35,444 nt of DNA from an uncultured Clostridia bacterium (GTDB taxonomy: Bacteria > Bacillota > Clostridia > Oscillospirales > Ruminococcaceae): positions 1 to 35,444 of the forward strand of contig CANRNN010000018.1 in assembly GCA_947632025.1 (NCBI GenBank), read 5' to 3'. The notes below the pieces were generated by a model. The model saw nothing but the letters and a program-made list of their open reading frames with translations, was not told the origin of the DNA and did not search any database. Shown here in pieces: positions 2,100 through 32,224 of this stretch. The position numbers were made by a program, and so were the translations under genes. Position 1 is the stretch's first letter. Each line of letters starts with the position of its first letter.

Positions 2100-3488
2100 A
2101 TGGAAAAGAAAATCGGTCTTGCGAGCGCGGTCGCCACGGGCGTTGGGCTTATTTTAGCCACAAGCTGTCTGTTGGTAATAGGTCAGGGCGTTTCGCAAAT
2201 AGGAAATTCGTTCGTTTTTTCAATGCTTATTGCCCTCGCGTTCAACGCCTTTACCGCGCTTTCGGTAAGCGAACTTAATGCGCTTATGCCGCAGCTTACG
2301 GGCGGACTGGCGCAATATACGCTTGTCGGAATGGGGAGATTTTTTTCCGTTTTGACAATGGTCGGCGGATATGTTGTCGGAATGACGATATTCGGAAGTC
2401 TTGAGGGAACGATGTTCGGAAGAACCATGAATATGCTGTTCCCGAATTTGGGCATACCGATGCCGATTTACGGTATTGTGCTTATGGCGGTCATTGTCCT
2501 TGCGAATTGCCGCGGAGTTGATATGTTTGCAAAGGTGCAAAATGTCGTAGCATATTCGCTTATAATCTCGCTGATTTTAATGGGTCTTGTAGGTTGCTTT
2601 CATCTCGGTCAGGGCGAAATTATCGAACAGGACACGGGATTAAACGCCTCCTTCGGTGAAATTATGGGACTTGTGGGAACGGCGTTTTATATGTTCGTCG
2701 GCTGTGAATTTGTTGTACCGTTAAGCCCGTTTGCAAAAAAGCCGCACATAACCATTCCTCTCGGTATGATAGGAAGTCTTGCGGTTGTGTTTATAATGCA
2801 GCTGTTCTGCGTTTTCGGATTTTCAAACTACGTTTCGTTTGCAGATTTGGGAACAAGCGAGTCGCCTCATATGCTGTACGGCGTGGCGGTACTCGGCGAA
2901 TTTGGGCGGTACTGGATGGGAGTAGTGTCAATTCTCGCGGTTATAAGCACGGCGAATACTGTTGTAAACTCTATTTCCTATCTTCTTTCGGGAATGTCGC
3001 GGATAAATCTTGTTCCTGAAATTTTCGGCAGGAAAAACAAAAAAGGCGCGCCGTACATAGGGATAATTACAATAGGCACAGCGATGACGGTTCTGGTAGT
3101 ATTAAGTCTTGTAGCTTCCGATTTGCTGAACTTTTTCCTGAAAGTTGCAAGCGTTTTCTGGATAATCGTGTATCTTGTACTTCACGTTGACGTTATCATT
3201 CTGCGTTTTCGTATGCCGAAAGTGCCGAGAACATTTAAAGTGCCGCTTGGAATTGTAATACCGATACTCGGAATAATAGGCGACATTTATATGATTTACG
3301 GAATTGACAGCAACCCCGAAGTGCGGAAAAACGTATTTATCGCCTGCGGAGTGATGTTTGTGGTGCTTACGGTATACTCGCTTTTCTGGGTGAAGAAAGT
3401 GATGAAAAAGCCGCTGTTCGAGCCTGTTCCGATAAAGGACGTTATGGCAATGGAAAACGAACGGTATTACAAATATCATAAACGATAA
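2100..3488 (+). CDS. APC-family amino acid/amine permease, likely methylamine importer
   Basis: The product is about 462 residues with some 12 hydrophobic segments, consistent with an APC-superfamily cation-coupled transporter. The ATG at 2100 is preferred over the upstream GTG at 2088, because GAGG lies just before it and overlaps the P-II stop. The gene sits between a P-II gene and the convergent pyl/mtm cluster. In Methanosarcina an APC permease (MtmP) is encoded with mtmC and mtmB, so monomethylamine is the likely substrate. An amino acid substrate cannot be excluded. A strong terminator follows at 3499-3527. Confidence 0.85.
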   Translation: MEKKIGLASAVATGVGLILATSCLLVIGQGVSQIGNSFVFSMLIALAFNAFTALSVSELNALMPQLTGGLAQYTLVGMGRFFSVLTMVGGYVVGMTIFGSLEGTMFGRTMNMLFPNLGIPMPIYGIVLMAVIVLANCRGVDMFAKVQNVVAYSLIISLILMGLVGCFHLGQGEIIEQDTGLNASFGEIMGLVGTAFYMFVGCEFVVPLSPFAKKPHITIPLGMIGSLAVVFIMQLFCVFGFSNYVSFADLGTSESPHMLYGVAVLGEFGRYWMGVVSILAVISTANTVVNSISYLLSGMSRINLVPEIFGRKNKKGAPYIGIITIGTAMTVLVVLSLVASDLLNFFLKVASVFWIIVYLVLHVDVIILRFRMPKVPRTFKVPLGIVIPILGIIGDIYMIYGIDSNPEVRKNVFIACGVMFVVLTVYSLFWVKKVMKKPLFEPVPIKDVMAMENERYYKYHKR

Positions 3489-3498
3489 TATCACAAAT

Positions 3499-3527
3499 GC
3501 GCGGTTTGATAAAAGCCGCGCTTTTTT
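3499..3527 (+). terminator. Intrinsic terminator after the permease
   Basis: GCGCGG plus TTT (3499-3507) pairs with the complementary arm at 3513-3521, followed by six T. It separates the plus-strand permease unit from the convergent pylSc gene, which ends at 3529. Confidence 0.85.
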
Positions 3528-3528
3528 G

Positions 3529-4377
3529 TTATTTAACGTTCAATCTTGCTCCGTCAAGAAACGCAATGCTCTTTGAAAACCGGTGAATGCCATGAGAATT
3601 TTCGCGGTACATAAGCAGTCTTTCCAGCCCGAAACCTATACCTACCCATGTTGAATTTATCCCCCAACGGGCGTCAAGCGGGTGCGGACCCATTGACGTC
3701 GAGGCAAGCTCCAAACCGTCACGTCCGACAAAATCAAGCCCCTCCCCGTAAACCACGGAATTTTCCAAAATCATATCGTACTCGTCAATTCCCGCCGCCG
3801 AAAGAACAGCTTTTCCGAATTGCTTCAGGTGTTCGCTGCGTTCATTTTCGGGAAGTCCCCACTCCACAAGGTTCAGCATGGTAAACTCTTTCAGGTGAGA
3901 ACGCCCCTCGGTTTCCCTGCGAAAACAGCTGCCTATCTCAAATATCCTGAGCGGTTTTCCTGCGGTTATTTTCAAGAGGTCTTTTGAAACGCTGTACAAA
4001 TTCGGCGCAAGCATGGGTCTTAAGCATTTGTTTTTGTCAACTCTGAAAACCTGTTCGTTAAGCGGGTGAGAGCCGTCTATCGTCATACGTTCAAGAAACT
4101 TGTCGGAAATAATTATCGGAGTTGTCACCTGAGTAAAACCGAGCTTACAAAGCGCGTCTGACAATGCGTATTCAAGCGCGCAAAGCTCTGGTCTGTGCTT
4201 AGTGTTCAGCAAATCGAGCAAATGCTCCTTGTTTTCGCGCGAAAGGTGTTTTTCGGTTTCCTGAAAGTATTTGTCGCGCTCCTCGCTTGTGCTGAAAACA
4301 GGCGTTTGTTCAACATCTGCGCCAAGATCCGAAAGGCGGTTTTGCTGAGTTTCGGAAAGTTTAAATTTGTCGTCCAT
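3529..4377 (-). CDS. pylSc: Pyrrolysyl-tRNA synthetase catalytic subunit (PylSc)
   Basis: The 282-residue class II synthetase core charges tRNA-Pyl with pyrrolysine. Recognisable pieces include RPMLAPNLY, the motif 2 region CFRRETEGRSHLKEFTMLN, and motif 3 WVGIGFGLERLL. These align with the C-terminal half of archaeal PylS and with free bacterial PylSc (about 290 residues). The tRNA-binding N-terminal domain is absent and is encoded next door as pylSn. The ATG at 4377 has GAGGTGA in front, overlapping the pylSn stop codon, so translation is probably coupled. In the pocket, the residue matching M. mazei C348 appears to be Val, while the N346 equivalent is kept. It is the last gene of the minus-strand pyl operon. 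Confidence 0.97.
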   Translation of the reverse strand: MDDKFKLSETQQNRLSDLGADVEQTPVFSTSEERDKYFQETEKHLSRENKEHLLDLLNTKHRPELCALEYALSDALCKLGFTQVTTPIIISDKFLERMTIDGSHPLNEQVFRVDKNKCLRPMLAPNLYSVSKDLLKITAGKPLRIFEIGSCFRRETEGRSHLKEFTMLNLVEWGLPENERSEHLKQFGKAVLSAAGIDEYDMILENSVVYGEGLDFVGRDGLELASTSMGPHPLDARWGINSTWVGIGFGLERLLMYRENSHGIHRFSKSIAFLDGARLNVK

Positions 4378-21166: not shown

Positions 21167-21375
21167 GGGGGTTTATTTTTCTGTTTTTCGTGGCTTATAT
21201 ATAGAGGGTTAAATTTTGCCCTCGGTTGTTCATTGAAAATTTAATAGCAGTATTTCAGATACTTTCCCTCGCGCAGCCTTTATGGTTGAAAGCGAAAGGA
21301 GCGCCGCGCCATGAAGTGTGCGAAGCATTTATAAGGAATTTTTCGGTATAAGATGTGATGAAAAGAGGTGAGAAA
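21167..21375. other. ICE leader sequence without a gene
   Basis: No convincing gene is seen here. GAGGG and CCCTC arms near 21205-21225 form a weak hairpin after the sigma gene. The stretch ends with a ribosome site (GAGGTGAG) that serves the short recombinase start at 21376. Confidence 0.4.
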
Positions 21376-21411
21376 ATGGCTCAGGTAACAATAATTAACG
21401 CAAAATCATGA
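21376..21411 (+). pseudogene. Remnant start of an ICE recombinase-like gene
   Basis: ATG with a good ribosome site opens MAQVTIINAKS and then stops at TGA. This start resembles serine recombinases that follow such sigma factors. A one-base shift would continue as HDDEIIRTAENAAERLFSS up to about 21468. The rest of the gene is absent, and cassette 1 follows directly. The original identity is uncertain. Confidence 0.5.
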
Positions 21412-21497
21412 TGATGAAATTATTAGAACGGCGGAAAATGCTGCCGAAAGGCTCTTTAGCTCGTAAATATTGATATGCGAAAAACTTTTGAATTTGC

Positions 21498-21545
21498 TTT
21501 TTCGGGGAAAGTGTGGTATAATTGTATATAGTCGGTTAGGAAGTA
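21498..21545 (+). promoter_or_regulatory. Cassette family alpha, 5' block (copy 1)
   Basis: A promoter block with TATAAT at 21517-21522. A 26-bp run (21512-21537) is identical to 22617-22642 ahead of the GNAT gene. It is followed by a leader hairpin GGTTAGG/CCTAACC (21535-21553). The close match in front of an unrelated gene marks it as a cassette module. Confidence 0.75.
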
Positions 21546-21580
21546 CGCCTAACCAATCGGCATTTAAGGAGAAAGCAAAA

Positions 21581-22174
21581 ATGATTTCTGAAATTTATGA
21601 TAGACGAAGCATAAGGAAATTCATAGATAAGCCTATATCTCAAAAAGATATTACAGATATTATCCAAAGCGGAATAAAAGCTCCTTCTTCTAAAAACAGA
21701 CAACCTTGGAAGTATATTGTAATACAAGGAAATTCCAAAGAAGAAATGTTAAAAGCCTTTCGTCAAGGAATTGAAAGGGAAGAAAATGATAGCTCGTTAT
21801 TGCCGGAAAGCAAACAGCATATATCTGCGGCAAAATACACTGTTGATATAATGACAGAAGCACCAACCATAGTTTTTGTCGTTAATTCGCTAGGGAAAAG
21901 TATTCTGTCAGAATTAACACCGGAAGAACGTGTTTTTGAAATCTGTAATATTCAAAGTATAGGTGCTTCTATACAAAATATGCTCCTTGCCGCTACCGAA
22001 AAAGGAATAGGCAGCCTTTGGATATGCGACATTTATTTTGCGTATTTAGAATTGTGCAAATGGTTGAATAGTGACGGGCAGCTTGTTGCAGCCATTGCAT
22101 TTGGTTATCCAAATGAATTTCCTAAAGAAAGACCTCGCAAGAAAATTGATGATATAATTGAGTGGAGGAACTAA
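21581..22174 (+). CDS. Nitroreductase family protein (cassette gene)
   Basis: The 197-residue FMN-dependent nitroreductase-like protein has the typical start ISEIYDRRSIRKFIDKPISQKDI, then APSSKNRQPWKYIVI (FMN-binding segment) and AATEKGIGSLWICDI. The likely role is NAD(P)H-dependent reduction of nitro or quinone compounds; the substrate is unknown. It has AGGAG at 9 bases. It is flanked by the alpha 5' block and by a terminator block at 22205-22264. Base composition is richer in A and T than the methylamine island, which suggests separate acquisition. Confidence 0.88.
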   Translation: MISEIYDRRSIRKFIDKPISQKDITDIIQSGIKAPSSKNRQPWKYIVIQGNSKEEMLKAFRQGIEREENDSSLLPESKQHISAAKYTVDIMTEAPTIVFVVNSLGKSILSELTPEERVFEICNIQSIGASIQNMLLAATEKGIGSLWICDIYFAYLELCKWLNSDGQLVAAIAFGYPNEFPKERPRKKIDDIIEWRN

Positions 22175-22204
22175 TTTGTCAGAATAACAAACCACCGTTT
22201 GTCG

Positions 22205-22264
22205 AGCAGAAGATAAATCAAAAACATATTAAAAGCATCGCATCAAGCGGTGCTTTTTATGCAA
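22205..22264 (+). terminator. Cassette family alpha, 3' block with terminator (copy 1)
   Basis: AGCATCGC (22234-22241) pairs with GCGGTGCT (22247-22254), followed by T. The whole 60-base stretch, including the AGATAAATCA segment upstream, aligns with 23183-23243 after the GNAT gene at roughly 80 percent by eye. Confidence 0.75.
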
Positions 22265-22330
22265 TGCGGTTGAGGAGCTTATAATAAAATGCGCCCAACT
22301 AAAATATTCAGCGATAAAGGAAGTGATAAA

Positions 22331-22558
22331 ATGAACGAACAAAAAATTGTCGTTATTCCCGCTAAATCACGCGAGGAAATTCAGCAGACAAAACGCCTGA
22401 AAGTGGCGGCGTACTGCCGCGTCAGCACCGACGAGGAGGAGCAGGAAACGAGCTACGAGGCGCAGATTTCCTACTACACCGACAAGATAAAAAATAACGC
22501 GAACTGGACGCTTGCAGGTATTTTTGCGGACGAGGGAATTTCGGGAACACAAGCGAAA
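22331..22558 (+). pseudogene. Large serine recombinase, N-terminal fragment
   Basis: [45 protein letters not shown] and [13 protein letters not shown] are the resolvase catalytic domain start of a clostridial ICE recombinase. The catalytic Ser is in CRVST. Homology stops after QAKN, and the frame runs into the alpha 5' block, ending at a chance stop (22636). The matching C-terminal end lies at 23277-23402. The roughly 400-residue middle is missing. Confidence 0.85.
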
Positions 22559-22601
22559 AACTATGTGTTTCATACTTTTAGATGTTTAAATTTAGTGCTT
22601 T

Positions 22602-22650
22602 CATTTTCGGAGAAAATGTGGTATAATTGTATATAGTCGGTTGGGTAGTA
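22602..22650 (+). promoter_or_regulatory. Cassette family alpha, 5' block (copy 2)
   Basis: It contains CATTTTC-GGA-GAAAATG (a small palindrome), TATAAT at 22622-22627 and the 26-bp run identical to copy 1. It follows the break in the recombinase frame. Confidence 0.75.
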
Positions 22651-22687
22651 ATGTTAATTAACAAATAGAGATTTGTAGGAGAAGGTC

Positions 22688-23161
22688 ATGGAGTACAAGA
22701 TAAGAACTATATTAGATGGAGAAGAAGGCTTACTGAACGACTTTTTATATGAAGCTATTTTTGTGCCTCCGGGAATTTCTCCGCCGCCTAGAGCAATTAT
22801 AAAACGGCCTGAATTGCAAGTTTATGTAACCGGCTTTGGAACGAAAAAAGATGATATTGGCTTGATCGCGGAAATTGATAATAAGCCTGTCGGTGCTGTC
22901 TGGGTTCGTATTATGAATGACTACGGACACATAGATGATGATACTCCCTCATCTGCAATATCATTGTACAAGGATTATCGGGGAATGGGAATAGGTACTG
23001 CATTGATGAAAGAAATGCTACGCATTCTCAAAGACCGAGGATATAAACAGGCGTCGCTTGCTGTGCAAAAAGCAAACTATGCTGTAAGAATGTATAAAAA
23101 AACGGGATTTGAAATTATAGATGAAAACGAGGATGAATATATCATGCTTTGTCGTTTGTGA
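22688..23161 (+). CDS. GNAT-family N-acetyltransferase (cassette gene)
   Basis: The 157-residue acetyltransferase has the acetyl-CoA motif A at about 99-115 (LYKDYRGMGIGTALMKEML, R-x-x-G-x-G). The typical end ANYAVRMYKKTGFEIIDENEDEYIML follows. The substrate is unknown. It has AGGAGA at 9 bases. It sits inside the broken serine recombinase, between alpha 5' and 3' blocks. Confidence 0.88.
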   Translation: MEYKIRTILDGEEGLLNDFLYEAIFVPPGISPPPRAIIKRPELQVYVTGFGTKKDDIGLIAEIDNKPVGAVWVRIMNDYGHIDDDTPSSAISLYKDYRGMGIGTALMKEMLRILKDRGYKQASLAVQKANYAVRMYKKTGFEIIDENEDEYIMLCRL

Positions 23162-23182
23162 TACTACAAATTACAATTTATC

Positions 23183-23243
23183 AAGCGAAAATAAATCAAT
23201 CACATATGAAAAGCATCGCACTAAGCGGTGTTTTTTTATGTAA
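23183..23243 (+). terminator. Cassette family alpha, 3' block with terminator (copy 2)
   Basis: AGCATCGC (23212-23219) pairs with GCGGTGTT (23225-23232), followed by a seven-T run. It aligns with 22205-22264 along its length. Confidence 0.75.
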
Positions 23244-23276
23244 TTTTGGAAATACAGCAGTTATTAAACGGCTTAA

Positions 23277-23402
23277 AAAGAGGATTTCAAGCTGACGGAG
23301 TATAACGATACGGCAGCAAGACGGCTTGTTGAACAAGTTGTTGTAAACGGCAAAAACCGCATAACAATACGGTTTAAGGGCGGGTTTGAGGTGCAAAAAT
23401 AA
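23277..23402 (+). pseudogene. Large serine recombinase, C-terminal fragment
   Basis: The frame reads LTEYNDTAARRLVEQVVV, then NGKNRITIRFKGGFEVQK and stop, the usual C-terminal end of clostridial ICE serine recombinases. It has no start of its own. Together with 22331-22558 it brackets the GNAT cassette, so the recombinase was interrupted and its middle lost. Confidence 0.82.
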
Positions 23403-24314: not shown

Positions 24315-25646
24315 ATGAAAAATTCTTTATCTTGTGGTGTTGAGTTACCTGAAACGTTAAGTGCTACTTTGCCATCTATTAATAGTTTAATGAATGCATT
24401 TAATTTGCCCCGCGAATTGATTGCAAGCGATGAGGAAATCCTATATGCTTGGAAAGAACTTCCTAGGGAAATATCAAGGATTCCTGATAATTTAAGGGAT
24501 GGTATGATTGTAAAAATGTGTGTAGCTGTATCTGTTGGACTTTTCGATGGCGCTATTAACTACATATGGAATGCGGTTATTACTACATTAAGACAGAAAA
24601 TCCGAAATTTTGGATTTTCTCTTATTCATGAAACTTTGGGGAAAAAGTTTGATGAGAACGATTTAATCGAATTAAAAGATTCGGAATTGTTGGATTTGTG
24701 CTATAAAGTTCAACTTGTTTCGGAAGATGGCTATTTTTTCTTAAATCAATGTAGAGATATCCGCAATAACTTCTCAACTGCTCATCCAAGTATAGCTCAG
24801 ATTGATGATCGGGAGTTGATAATCTTCATCAACCGTTGTTGTAAATATGGTATTACAGACGACTATTCTGTGCAAGGCATTAAAATATCAGATTTTATTG
24901 TGGCAGTTAAGGAACAAAAATTAGATGATACAATGTTAGGAGTTTGGACTCAAAGATTATCGGAAACTTTTCATAGGCAACGTCAGATGCTAGTAATGAT
25001 GCTTATGGGAATTTACTGCGATTCAAATTCAACAGAGGAATCTAGATTAAATGCTCTCAGAATTTGCTTAGCAATCAAAGAAGCTATTGATGAGCCTATT
25101 CAATCATCTCTAATTGAACAATACAATGAATATTTTGTCAAGGGCAAAACCGATAAGTACAAGGCGGCTAAGGTATTCTTTGAAAAGTTGGGAATGCTTA
25201 ATCTGTTAAGCGAATCGGAAAAGAATTCAATTGTAAAAATCGCCTGCAAGAACTTGTTGAGTGCTCATCTTGAATTCAATAATTTTTATAACGAACCCCC
25301 TTTTGCAGAGCGTCTCTATGAAATTTCCAAGTCAATGGAAATTCCGGAAATGGCTAAATACGAATACGTTTTTACTGTCCTTATGGGGTATGTGGGAAAT
25401 CCTTATGGTGTGTCTAATGGGGCAGTATGGTACTATGAAAAGATGATCAGAGGTTTTTCGCCCAAAGAAATCAACTGCTTGTTATCACTTACTGATTCAC
25501 GTTCTCTGTTTTCTGAAAAAATTGAATATCATTCTTGCTGCAAGAAAAGGTATGTGGCTGCTATAAATATGGTTGAAGAGGATAGTATAGATGCTCAACA
25601 AATTGCTAAGCGAAAAATGCTTCTTTCAAAATTGCAAAGTCAGTGA
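24315..25646 (+). CDS. HEPN-motif protein, possible defence RNase
   Basis: The 443-residue, mostly helical protein belongs to no family I can name. Residues 144-159 read NQCRDIRNNFSTAHPS and contain Arg150-x6-His157, the R-x4-6-H motif of HEPN ribonucleases, in a helical context that fits (VGLFDGAINYIWNAVITTLR upstream). No membrane segment or signal peptide is seen. The gene is AT-rich, has its own promoter and sits in an ICE accessory region next to a broken HNH gene. An abortive-infection or toxin role is possible but unproven. Confidence 0.6.
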   Translation: MKNSLSCGVELPETLSATLPSINSLMNAFNLPRELIASDEEILYAWKELPREISRIPDNLRDGMIVKMCVAVSVGLFDGAINYIWNAVITTLRQKIRNFGFSLIHETLGKKFDENDLIELKDSELLDLCYKVQLVSEDGYFFLNQCRDIRNNFSTAHPSIAQIDDRELIIFINRCCKYGITDDYSVQGIKISDFIVAVKEQKLDDTMLGVWTQRLSETFHRQRQMLVMMLMGIYCDSNSTEESRLNALRICLAIKEAIDEPIQSSLIEQYNEYFVKGKTDKYKAAKVFFEKLGMLNLLSESEKNSIVKIACKNLLSAHLEFNNFYNEPPFAERLYEISKSMEIPEMAKYEYVFTVLMGYVGNPYGVSNGAVWYYEKMIRGFSPKEINCLLSLTDSRSLFSEKIEYHSCCKKRYVAAINMVEEDSIDAQQIAKRKMLLSKLQSQ

Positions 25647-27691: not shown

Positions 27692-27764
27692 TTGACATTT
27701 TCAATGTGGTGGCGTATAATATTGATATGGGGAGATATTGATATCTTCATATAAATCGGAATTT
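27692..27764 (+). promoter_or_regulatory. Cassette family beta, 5' block (copy 1)
   Basis: TTGACA (27692-27697), 17 bp, TATAAT (27715-27720), then ATTGATAT, a palindrome AGATAT-TG-ATATCT (27733-27746) and AAATCGGAATTT (27753-27764). The same order occurs at 31569-31641. The hairpin sequence differs but stays self-complementary. Confidence 0.75.
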
Positions 27765-27784
27765 AGCGGGAGGATTGAAAATAT

Positions 27785-28133
27785 ATGAACAGCACAATTT
27801 TAGAACATATTAACGAATTGTTTGATTCGTATGATTTGTTTTCCGGTAAAGGTAAAGAAAAGATACGCAGTTCAATTACAAAAAAAATTTCCTGATTTAT
27901 CAGAAAGAGAAATTAAAGAAGTAGAAAAATATTTAGGTTTGCTTTTTGAGTATTGCGTGAAATATGCAGATTTATTAGCTGAAAAATATAAAACACCATT
28001 TTTACCTAAAGGAGAAGAAGCTCAAAAGGAAATATTAGAATATGTAAGTGAATGTCAAAAACAATACCCTGAAATTGATACGAATCATATTGTAAATATT
28101 TTTTCTACTGTCTGCTGGTTAGCAAATAGGTAA
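27785..28133 (+). pseudogene. Frameshifted small helical protein (beta cassette gene)
   Basis: The ATG has GGGAGGA upstream and opens MNSTILEHINELFDSYDLFS, then stops after an A8 tract near 27884. Removing one A joins it to QKKFPDLSEREIKEVEKYLG and on to ANR at 28133, a helical protein of about 115 residues. The shift sits exactly in the homopolymer, so it may be decay, phase variation or sequencing error. Function unknown. The beta inverted repeats flank the gene. Confidence 0.65.
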
Positions 28134-28581
28134 GAGCTTTTAAATTCTGATTTACCATAACAGGCAATCCGTATAACCATAGCTATAAATCGTTCCAGTG
28201 CTGCAAACAGTCCCGCACGTTGCCGAGTTTCAAAATGAAATTTCTCGAATTAAATAAAATTAAAATTTAATACGAAACTGCCCCTGCAACCCCTCGCGCG
28301 ATTTTTTCGGAAACCGAAAAAACACTTGAAAATCCGTTACCCGCTGTCCACGCTTTTTCGTGCCGTGCCATAATCCGCTCCAAAACCTTGTCAATGTCAA
28401 ATGAGGAATTTGGCAGTTTAAATTTTTCCTTTGGAGAAAACTGCATTTTACTGCACAAAATATTAAAAAGGCAAAAAAAGACCTCCGCAAAACGCGGAGA
28501 TTAGCGATTTAATTCAAATTAAATTATTATCTTGCAAAGGCTCAAAATTCGCTATACTGTGCGGGGACGGAGCAAACTCCG
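28134..28581. other. Intergenic stretch with beta 3' repeat and gene debris
   Basis: AAATTCTGATTT at 28142-28153 is the right-hand beta repeat, an inverted copy of the one at 27753. The minus strand from 28458 to 28267 reads KMQFSPKEKFKLPNSSFDID and VLERIMARHEKAW, which looks like a short piece of a mobile-element protein with no ribosome site. The hairpin ACGGAG/CTCCGT lies at 28564-28579. No intact gene is seen. Confidence 0.5.
28473..28499 (-). terminator. Intrinsic terminator of the sigma/anti-sigma operon
   Basis: On the minus strand CTCCGC (28499-28494) pairs with GCGGAG (28488-28483), followed by a T run at 28479-28473. It lies about 85 bases after the anti-sigma-like gene. Confidence 0.8.
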
Positions 28582-31546: not shown

Positions 31547-31568
31547 CAAATACTTTTTCATAAAGTCA

Positions 31569-31641
31569 TTGACATTCTTAGTAGAATTTTGTATAATATT
31601 GATATAGGAAAGAATTTAATTTCTTACTTAAATCGAAATTT
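31569..31641 (+). promoter_or_regulatory. Cassette family beta, 5' block (copy 2)
   Basis: TTGACA (31569-31574), 17 bp, TATAAT (31592-31597), ATTGATAT, a self-complementary AAGAA/TTCTT segment (about 31610-31625) and AAATCGAAATTT (31630-31641). It matches 27692-27764 in order and spacing. Confidence 0.75.
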
Positions 31642-31657
31642 ATGGAGGAATCAGATA

Positions 31658-32125
31658 ATGCCTCAAATGAATAAAGGTGGCAAATTTATATTTGGGAAAT
31701 CATTGATCCGAAGTGATGGTGTCCTGCAATTTCCCTCTCAGGCGATTCAAGAGTATAATATCGCAACAGAAGGGAAGGTTTATCTGTTTACGGGCAGCAA
31801 AAGCACAGGCGGGTTTTGTGTTACACGGAAAGGATTGCTTGAACCGTCAAAGCTCGGACATATTGTCACCGAAACACCGGAATTGAGAGAATATACTTCC
31901 AAGGAAGGTGATTTCATCAAATATAAAGGGAGATCCTATGCTTGGGTAAGTATTACAGAAGATGGAAGAATCGCGCTGACAGAAGACATGATGAAGTTTC
32001 TGAAAATTGGAATTGGGATGAAATTATTGTCGATTCGCAGTAGCGATATTGCATTTACAATGGGTGCTTATGGAAGATTAGTCGAGGAATCAATAAAACA
32101 CGAAAGCGAAATTCCAATATACTGA
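31658..32125 (+). CDS. Conserved-looking hypothetical protein (beta cassette gene)
   Basis: The product is 155 residues from the ATG at 31658, which has GGAGGA at 8 bases and is preferred over 31589 because that lies in the promoter block. The N-terminal part (KFIFGKSLIRSDGVLQFPSQAIQEYNIATEGKVYLF) and the later ISEDGRI-like strand pattern (WVSITEDGRIALTEDMMKFLKIGIGMKLLSIRSSDIAF) look like two AbrB/SpoVT-type swapped-hairpin units. Function unknown. No membrane segment. The beta repeats bracket it. Confidence 0.7.
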   Translation: MPQMNKGGKFIFGKSLIRSDGVLQFPSQAIQEYNIATEGKVYLFTGSKSTGGFCVTRKGLLEPSKLGHIVTETPELREYTSKEGDFIKYKGRSYAWVSITEDGRIALTEDMMKFLKIGIGMKLLSIRSSDIAFTMGAYGRLVEESIKHESEIPIY

Positions 32126-32132
32126 GAGATTC

Positions 32133-32144
32133 AAATTCTGATTT
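32133..32144 (+). repeat. Cassette family beta, 3' inverted repeat (copy 2)
   Basis: AAATTCTGATTT lies 7 bases after the stop codon. The same 12-mer is at 28142-28153, 8 bases after the other beta gene. It is an imperfect inverted copy of AAATCGRAATTT in the 5' blocks. Confidence 0.65.
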
Positions 32145-32224
32145 ATCTAAGCCGTCAAATCTTTTGGCACGCTCGAAAAGCGTTTCGCACAAGTCCAAAT
32201 CAGCATTCTCGAAAATACCGAATT

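Follow-up and report, generated by a model that had tools for sequence, protein, structure and literature searches.

The repeated sequences that enclose unrelated genes in the DNA analysed here probably represent a superfamily of single-ORF cassettes, whose ORFs would be exchanged between outer frames at two short joints, P2 and P3, most likely by recombination. The window, by which we mean the whole stretch of DNA that was analysed, is 35,444 nt long and comes from an uncultured Clostridia bacterium of the family Ruminococcaceae (contig CANRNN010000018.1). In the proposed scheme, a cassette would be composed of an outer frame, with a promoter, often a leader hairpin and a terminator on the far side, and an inner ORF preceded by a Shine-Dalgarno sequence of its own. 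Frame and ORF would meet at two inverted copies of a near-palindrome, P2 and P3, and ORFs would swap between frames, both within a genome and between species, with breaks at these two sites. The palindromic joint, as the apparent point at which homology starts and stops, is a new finding that goes beyond the original prediction of cassettes with shared promoter and terminator blocks. To our knowledge, little is known about the acquisition and immediate expression of single genes outside integrons in uncultured Clostridia. A defined joint makes such acquisition testable, since one can compile frames, ORFs and breakpoints and look for an enzyme or pathway that tracks with them.

Cassette structure in the window

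Two cassettes with a frame referred to as alpha are located close to each other on the forward strand, as are all cassettes and recombinase remnants in the window for which coordinates are given below. The 5' frame of the first (21462..21570) contains a promoter, with the -35 box TTGCTT at 21494-21499, a 17-nt spacer and the -10 box TATAAT at 21517-21522, and a leader hairpin at 21534-21554. It is followed by the left joint P2 (21551..21567), an ORF for a nitroreductase (21581..22174; Pfam PF00881), a poorly matching right joint P3 (22187..22203) and a 3' frame (22185..22262) with a terminator hairpin at 22231-22258. The second cassette likewise has a 5' frame with promoter and leader (22567..22680; P2 at 22661-22677), which precedes an ORF for a GNAT acetyltransferase (22688..23161; PF00583), and ends with P3 (23166-23182), a 3' frame and a terminator (together 23166..23244).

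As had been predicted, these two unrelated genes are enclosed by the same blocks. A repeat search paired the 5' blocks over 63 nt (21483-21545 and 22588-22650; 83% identity), and the predicted identity of 26 nt, TGTGGTATAATTGTATATAGTCGGTT, was confirmed in both. The shared 3' block was also confirmed, although its length is not the predicted 60 bp or so, but 50 nt when aligned without gaps (22209-22258 and 23187-23236; 86%) and about 80 nt with gaps; its start is no more than about 15 nt from the stop codon. When the complete genome (2.36 Mb) was searched, the second copy of the 5' block had an E-value of 8.1e-13 and that of the 3' block 2.4e-12, and the best match to the 5' block outside the cassettes had an E-value of 0.009. 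The similarities of both blocks in the window are thus far beyond chance in a genome of this size. No Rfam family scored above the cut-off in the segment 21200-23400, where the best hit was SpF25 with 31.4 bits against a cut-off of 48. At the related locus L226, SpF25 scored 22.7 bits and the sole match above the cut-off was a tRNA. No known structured RNA was thus recognised in the blocks.

Two further cassettes in the window have another frame, beta. One of these (27692..28268) consists of a promoter at 27692-27720, a left joint at 27752-27765, a right joint at 28141-28154 and a 3' frame that extends to 28268; its ORF, here called ORF X, begins at 27785 and has a broken reading frame, with one extra base compared with a copy on contig C16. 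The other (31568..32147) has a promoter, a left joint at 31629-31642 and a right joint at 32131-32147, with an ORF (31658-32125) that matched neither Pfam nor PADLOC. PADLOC gave no match among the window cassette ORFs examined.

Strong matches to the 5' block were found by BLAST at five places in the source genome. The 3' block was recovered at E < 1e-4 by BLAST for four of these five copies and by the 3' models for all five; it ends in a hairpin resembling an intrinsic terminator in three, and the hairpin is cut in the copies at C6:120k and C16. The cargo consists of the nitroreductase and the GNAT of the window, a GNAT at C6:132k, another GNAT at C6:120k and a NUDIX gene at C16. The three GNATs match each other at no more than 30% identity over 53-90 residues, and the five ORFs represent four unrelated or barely related kinds. 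The ORFs vary between these copies and the leader and the 3' block are constant. Because several GNATs and a NUDIX gene are found in the frame and diverged members are found elsewhere, the blocks are not the ordinary flanks of two gene families passed on by descent, the outcome that would have spoken against the cassettes; they occur with NUDIX and other cargo, and in other species.

Homology breaks at the joints

The joint is a near-palindrome of 14-17 nt, approximately (GA)TAAATCGGAATTT. P2 is located just ahead of the Shine-Dalgarno sequence, while P3, in inverted orientation, is located at or just past the stop codon. When the members are read side by side, the left joint is approximately TGAYAAATCGGGATTT before the Shine-Dalgarno sequence and the right joint approximately TAAATTCCCGATTTATC at the stop. 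It bounds ORFs in the alpha, beta and gamma frames and in two further frames. The joints are variable and some are poor, such as the right joints of the first cassette in the window and of C6:120k.

Four pairwise comparisons break at the joint: either the frames differ around a shared gene, or the genes differ within a shared frame. Members are few, with one or two pairs per class of breakpoint. ORF X in the beta frame of the window and in a gamma frame on C16 can be aligned over 194 columns that contain a single mismatch and a single gap. This near identity sets in exactly with the left joint, whereas the preceding 20 nt and the promoters differ; the gamma frame of C16 is shared with G330:C6, and the 3' side of the C16 copy is cut. 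The GNAT gene in the window is identical to the GNAT gene of G330:C3 at 427 of 471 ORF nucleotides, with homology that begins at the left joint and 3' blocks that are similar but diverged. Conversely, the cassettes of G330:C2 and C3 match over 872 columns (91%) outward from the right joint, including a gene with a RadC domain, but their ORFs are unrelated and the match between their 5' frames stops within the left joint. Likewise, the first beta-frame cassette of the window and C3:2.3k have unrelated ORFs and are alike over 128 nt (5 mismatches), a match whose first base is also that of the right joint; the beta frame is also present in another genus (L021 of G063). These four breaks lead us to conclude that ORFs and frames are separate modules with the joint between them. 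At the level of the alignments, modularity, coinciding breakpoints and the presence of one ORF in different frames in two species are all shown. The modular design that had been suggested is also borne out by the five copies in the source genome, by unrelated ORFs beyond the two original families and by members in other genera.

To quantify the occurrence of the joint, we searched 1.05 Mb of loci, a redundant set enriched in cassettes, for the left-type word with up to 2 mismatches. This yielded 36 lines, compared to 1 for the reversed word, and 24 of the 36 were at cassette joints as judged by reading, a few of them being the same place twice. By scanning 134 non-redundant loci (685 kb) with a matrix, we identified 26 ORFs with an inverted pair of joints above 14 bits (best 41.5), versus 14 with a pair in direct orientation (best 28.0). 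These scores are partly circular since the matrix was mostly built from the same sites, but sites outside the set used for building it still scored 39.2 (L154) and 21.7 (the transporter of L021). G000, G330 and G334 were each represented by 400 kb of spread sequence, in which there were 4, 8 and 0 sites above 16 bits, against 1, 0 and 2 for the reversed matrix, and 1, 1 and 1 ORFs with pairs above 20, against 0, 1 and 0; none of these pairs was convincing. Joints are rare in these 1.2 Mb of sampled genome. One cassette in the G000 sample, C3:1.5-2.3k with an Rce1/CAAX-like ORF, was recognised via its right joint and was missed by the pair scan. A separate observation is a 208-aa ORF on the reverse strand of L016 (7328-7954) with an inverted pair of joints scoring 27.4.

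A possible, though not a likely, alternative is that P2 and P3 are kept for a function in the RNA, as pairing between the 5' and 3' UTRs or as part of the leader hairpin, and that the swaps are due to ordinary homologous recombination in the flanks. In line with this, hairpins with z < -1 were predicted in 11 of 22 leaders with differing stem sequences (mean -0.92 relative to letter shuffles), and P2 and P3 are complementary by consensus, with a mean duplex value of -12.3 versus -8.9 for shuffled letters. However, P2 and P3 from the same cassette paired at -12.3 compared to -11.4 for swapped partners (19 cassettes, permutation p = 0.14), which does not support cassette-specific pairing in the mRNA, and homologous recombination in the flanks cannot by itself put ORF X behind non-homologous promoters.

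Probable exchange of ORFs between frames

These patterns are best accounted for by frames that recombine with each other and cross over at the joints. The exchange of ORFs between frames is known from comparisons of sequences, from which we infer the exchange step itself. Incoming or duplicated cassettes would most likely recombine through homologous frame sequence, and unrelated frames most likely at the palindrome, by illegitimate recombination or annealing, after which selection would favour a gene that is expressed at once. For frames of one family, we infer that nothing more is needed than homologous recombination in the frame sequence to either side. Frames of different families have only the joint in common, so that exchange between them would need an event of another kind, illegitimate, annealing or site-specific.

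Breaks at the same short palindromic site in unrelated frames, the inverted and hairpin-like nature of these sites and a GNAT gene that moved between species without its frame could also be the work of a dedicated enzyme, either a site-specific recombinase or an HUH/Y1-like transposase, that acts in trans, recognises P2 and P3 and moves promoterless ORFs between frames. We consider this unlikely, since the loci that were compared have no recombinase gene in common, and a tyrosine recombinase beside the cassette of G277 was matched at none of the other 17 loci. Furthermore, the accepted ORFs are all in sense orientation relative to the promoter, whereas inverted sites would also yield inversions, and we found a decayed frame, in G342, but no empty one. 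It is correspondingly doubtful that Clostridia have an undescribed gene-cassette system, in which a dedicated recombinase acting in trans moves promoterless ORFs with inverted sites of 14-17 nt between resident frames; if true, this would be a counterpart of the integron in which each frame is its own single-slot platform.

Comparison with known systems

The feature works like a single-slot gene cassette, and we class it neither as an integron cassette nor as a mobile insertion cassette. It resembles integron gene cassettes in that single exchangeable ORFs of similar kinds (GNAT, NUDIX) are involved, with one case of a tandem arrangement. The cargo is of the detoxifying or small-molecule-modifying kind, which integron cassettes also carry. 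In contrast to these, each cassette has its own promoter and terminator, and the ORF is surrounded by two inverted palindromes rather than followed by a single attC site. The attC site of integrons is located behind the ORF and its core ends are RYYYAAC and GTTRRRY. This core was not found in the blocks that were read: some of the leaders have single GTTRRRY or RYYYAAC words, but these are unpaired or wrongly ordered, and the 3' blocks have none. The leader hairpin was ruled out as an attC site by reading, and no integrase was found beside the cassettes at the loci read.

Mobile insertion cassettes (MICs) are similar in that passenger genes without a transposase are located between conserved ends. 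The ends observed here do not look like IS ends with insertion, and only the ORF changes between constant frames. MICs and MITEs have terminal inverted repeats of an IS and a target-site duplication. The inverted joints observed here are inside the promoter-terminator frame, and no target duplication was seen by reading, there being no empty alpha site for comparison. Mobile promoters share with our cassettes a promoter sequence that recurs before unrelated genes, but here the leader, the joint and the 3' block recur as well and it is the genes that move. Elements of the IS200/IS605 type have palindromic ends that are worked by a Y1 transposase. The likeness is in the palindromes at both ends and in that no target duplication is expected, but no Y1 transposase was seen here and no constant target motif precedes the left joint. 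A full-text search of the open-licence literature, judged by titles and the starts of abstracts, found no description of such cassettes.

Association with a three-serine-recombinase element

The alpha cassettes of the source genome are associated with an element that is intact in relatives, where a conserved leader is followed by three serine recombinases in tandem and then by a small ORF that matched no Pfam family, with other genes behind it. The recombinases of G334 are 505, 166 and 536 aa long, with Resolvase and Recombinase domains in the first and the third and a Recombinase domain alone in the second. DNA of the leader region was matched in 21 and the 3' part in 20 of 43 genomes of the genus, including the source genome. 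An intact copy at L096 (G334:C6:66000-80000) is followed by a second remnant, with the last part of recombinase 3 and the DNA after it, as though elements accumulate one behind another. At L139 (G094:C5:85000-87730), a piece of the promoter region from behind the small ORF is repeated five times about 170 nt apart (~1644-2460), ahead of a recombinase-like frame.

In the window, a remnant of the leader (21228..21319; 93% identical to the leader of L096) is followed by the start of recombinase 1 (21376..21434), which is broken after about 20 codons; homology to L096 and L097 stops at 21434. The end of recombinase 2 and the start of recombinase 3 (22263..22560; ATG at 22331, Resolvase domain), broken at about residue 75, separate the two cassettes, and the end of recombinase 3 remains downstream (23264..23402). 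The original prediction placed one cassette inside a serine recombinase and the other behind a recombinase-like start. The former position is correct for the GNAT cassette, which is located between residues 2-75 and 491-531 of the third recombinase. The nitroreductase cassette has on one side the start of recombinase 1, to which homology stops at about codon 20, and on the other residues 145-165 of recombinase 2. Relative to G334, where the locus is intact, about 1.9 and 1.2 kb of recombinase sequence are gone at the two cassettes, which are thus replacements rather than simple insertions. No target duplication was seen by reading at the junctions of filled loci. The proposed definition of exact ends from empty and filled recombinase loci yielded these replacements, but no empty alpha site. 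After the remnants, in the part of the window with the lowest GC content, there is an ORF of 443 aa (24315-25646) without a Pfam or PADLOC match.

All five alpha copies in the source genome adjoin remnants of the element, with element sequence on at least one side of the other three, and some of their breakpoints are in common, so that the copies are related by duplication. The alpha frame appears to have multiplied in this genome along with the remnants. By contrast, a comparison with 15 loci of other genomes (stretches of 2-8 kb), at all of which except L193 a cassette or remnant had been accepted, gave no match to the recombinases, the small ORF or the leader, and the element was present only as remnants beside the alpha copies of the source genome. 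The predicted role of the recombinase locus as a landing site therefore holds for the source genome (5 of 5 copies), but not as a general rule. It is improbable that the cassettes are simply the cargo of this element, with genes taking the place of the recombinases in copies that are non-autonomous and depend on intact elements for mobilisation in trans. The remnants and shared breakpoints of the five copies would agree with this, and it may describe the spread of the alpha frame in the source genome, but it fails as a general account given the loci of other genomes and the beta and gamma cassettes, which are outside the element.

Members in other genomes

Searching genomes for the two blocks, as had been proposed, retrieved diverged members with various genes in between. 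The exact 5' pattern was present only in G000 among 43 genomes of the genus, with one match each at 3 mismatches in G323 and G240; it had no match in the collections of genome contigs or viral contigs, and blastn of the 5' block against plasmids and phages gave none. BLAST matched the 5' block in 8 of 297 genomes of the family, including the source genome. Nine 5'-block loci outside the source genome were read, of which L019 is a cassette and L021 holds two, and the other seven were judged to be promoter-only or chance matches.

A feature private to one species was ruled out by the sequence models R1-R3, which found diverged members. Within the genus, diverged alpha members are present in G330 (C2, C3 and C7) and G240 (C1, and a 5' block at C3), and in other genera in G213, where the 5' side is missing at a contig end, and G277, with a decayed one in G342. 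The 3' model reached E 0.01 in 9 of the 43 genus genomes, with accepted members in G000, G330 and G240. At 3e-4, R2 listed 15 of 396 family genomes, of which 5 were accepted and the other 10 are candidates, and R3 listed 6 of 396 at 1e-3, namely the same 5 and a candidate match in G183. The family counts are lower bounds, since only 11-12 candidates were scored per genome and G330 was outside the sample. It is highly improbable that the blocks are common regulatory sequences of the clade, a strong promoter and a common terminator kept by descent with no cassette involved: most of the nine loci do have the promoter part only, before ordinary genes, and R1 has some match at E <= 0.01 in 36 of the 43 genus genomes, mostly weak and promoter-like, but the homology runs through the leader, the joint and about 40 nt before the terminator, there are five full paired copies, and the breaks are at joints that are rare in sampled genomes.

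The exact 3'-block pattern was found in 9 genome contigs and 1 viral contig, of which L226 and L228 were judged real and the rest chance. The same metallo-hydrolase cassette as in G277 is present on CANRIA010000011.1, and on CANQLI010000002.1 the genes for tRNA-Pro and tRNA-Gln flank two tandem cassettes, a kinase-like one and then a GNAT one, the second of which has no recognisable 3' block; both contigs are from uncultured Clostridia bacteria. At L228, a gene for a tyrosine recombinase (3488-4327; PF00589) is located behind the metallo-hydrolase cassette and is absent from the other cassette loci. The cargo comprises GNAT, NUDIX, nitroreductase, metallo-hydrolase, CAAX-like proteases, flavodoxin and an EamA-like transporter. 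On plasmids, the cassette GNAT matched 2 records and the nitroreductase 62, all below 60% identity and at the protein level only. About 600 nt after the GNAT cassette of G330:C7, PADLOC identified an AbiQ-type gene (L190, 3896-4444). The cassettes of G330:C3 (L192) and G240:C1 (L195) contain different GNATs and have a flavin-reductase gene directly ahead of them, perhaps an orthologous slot.
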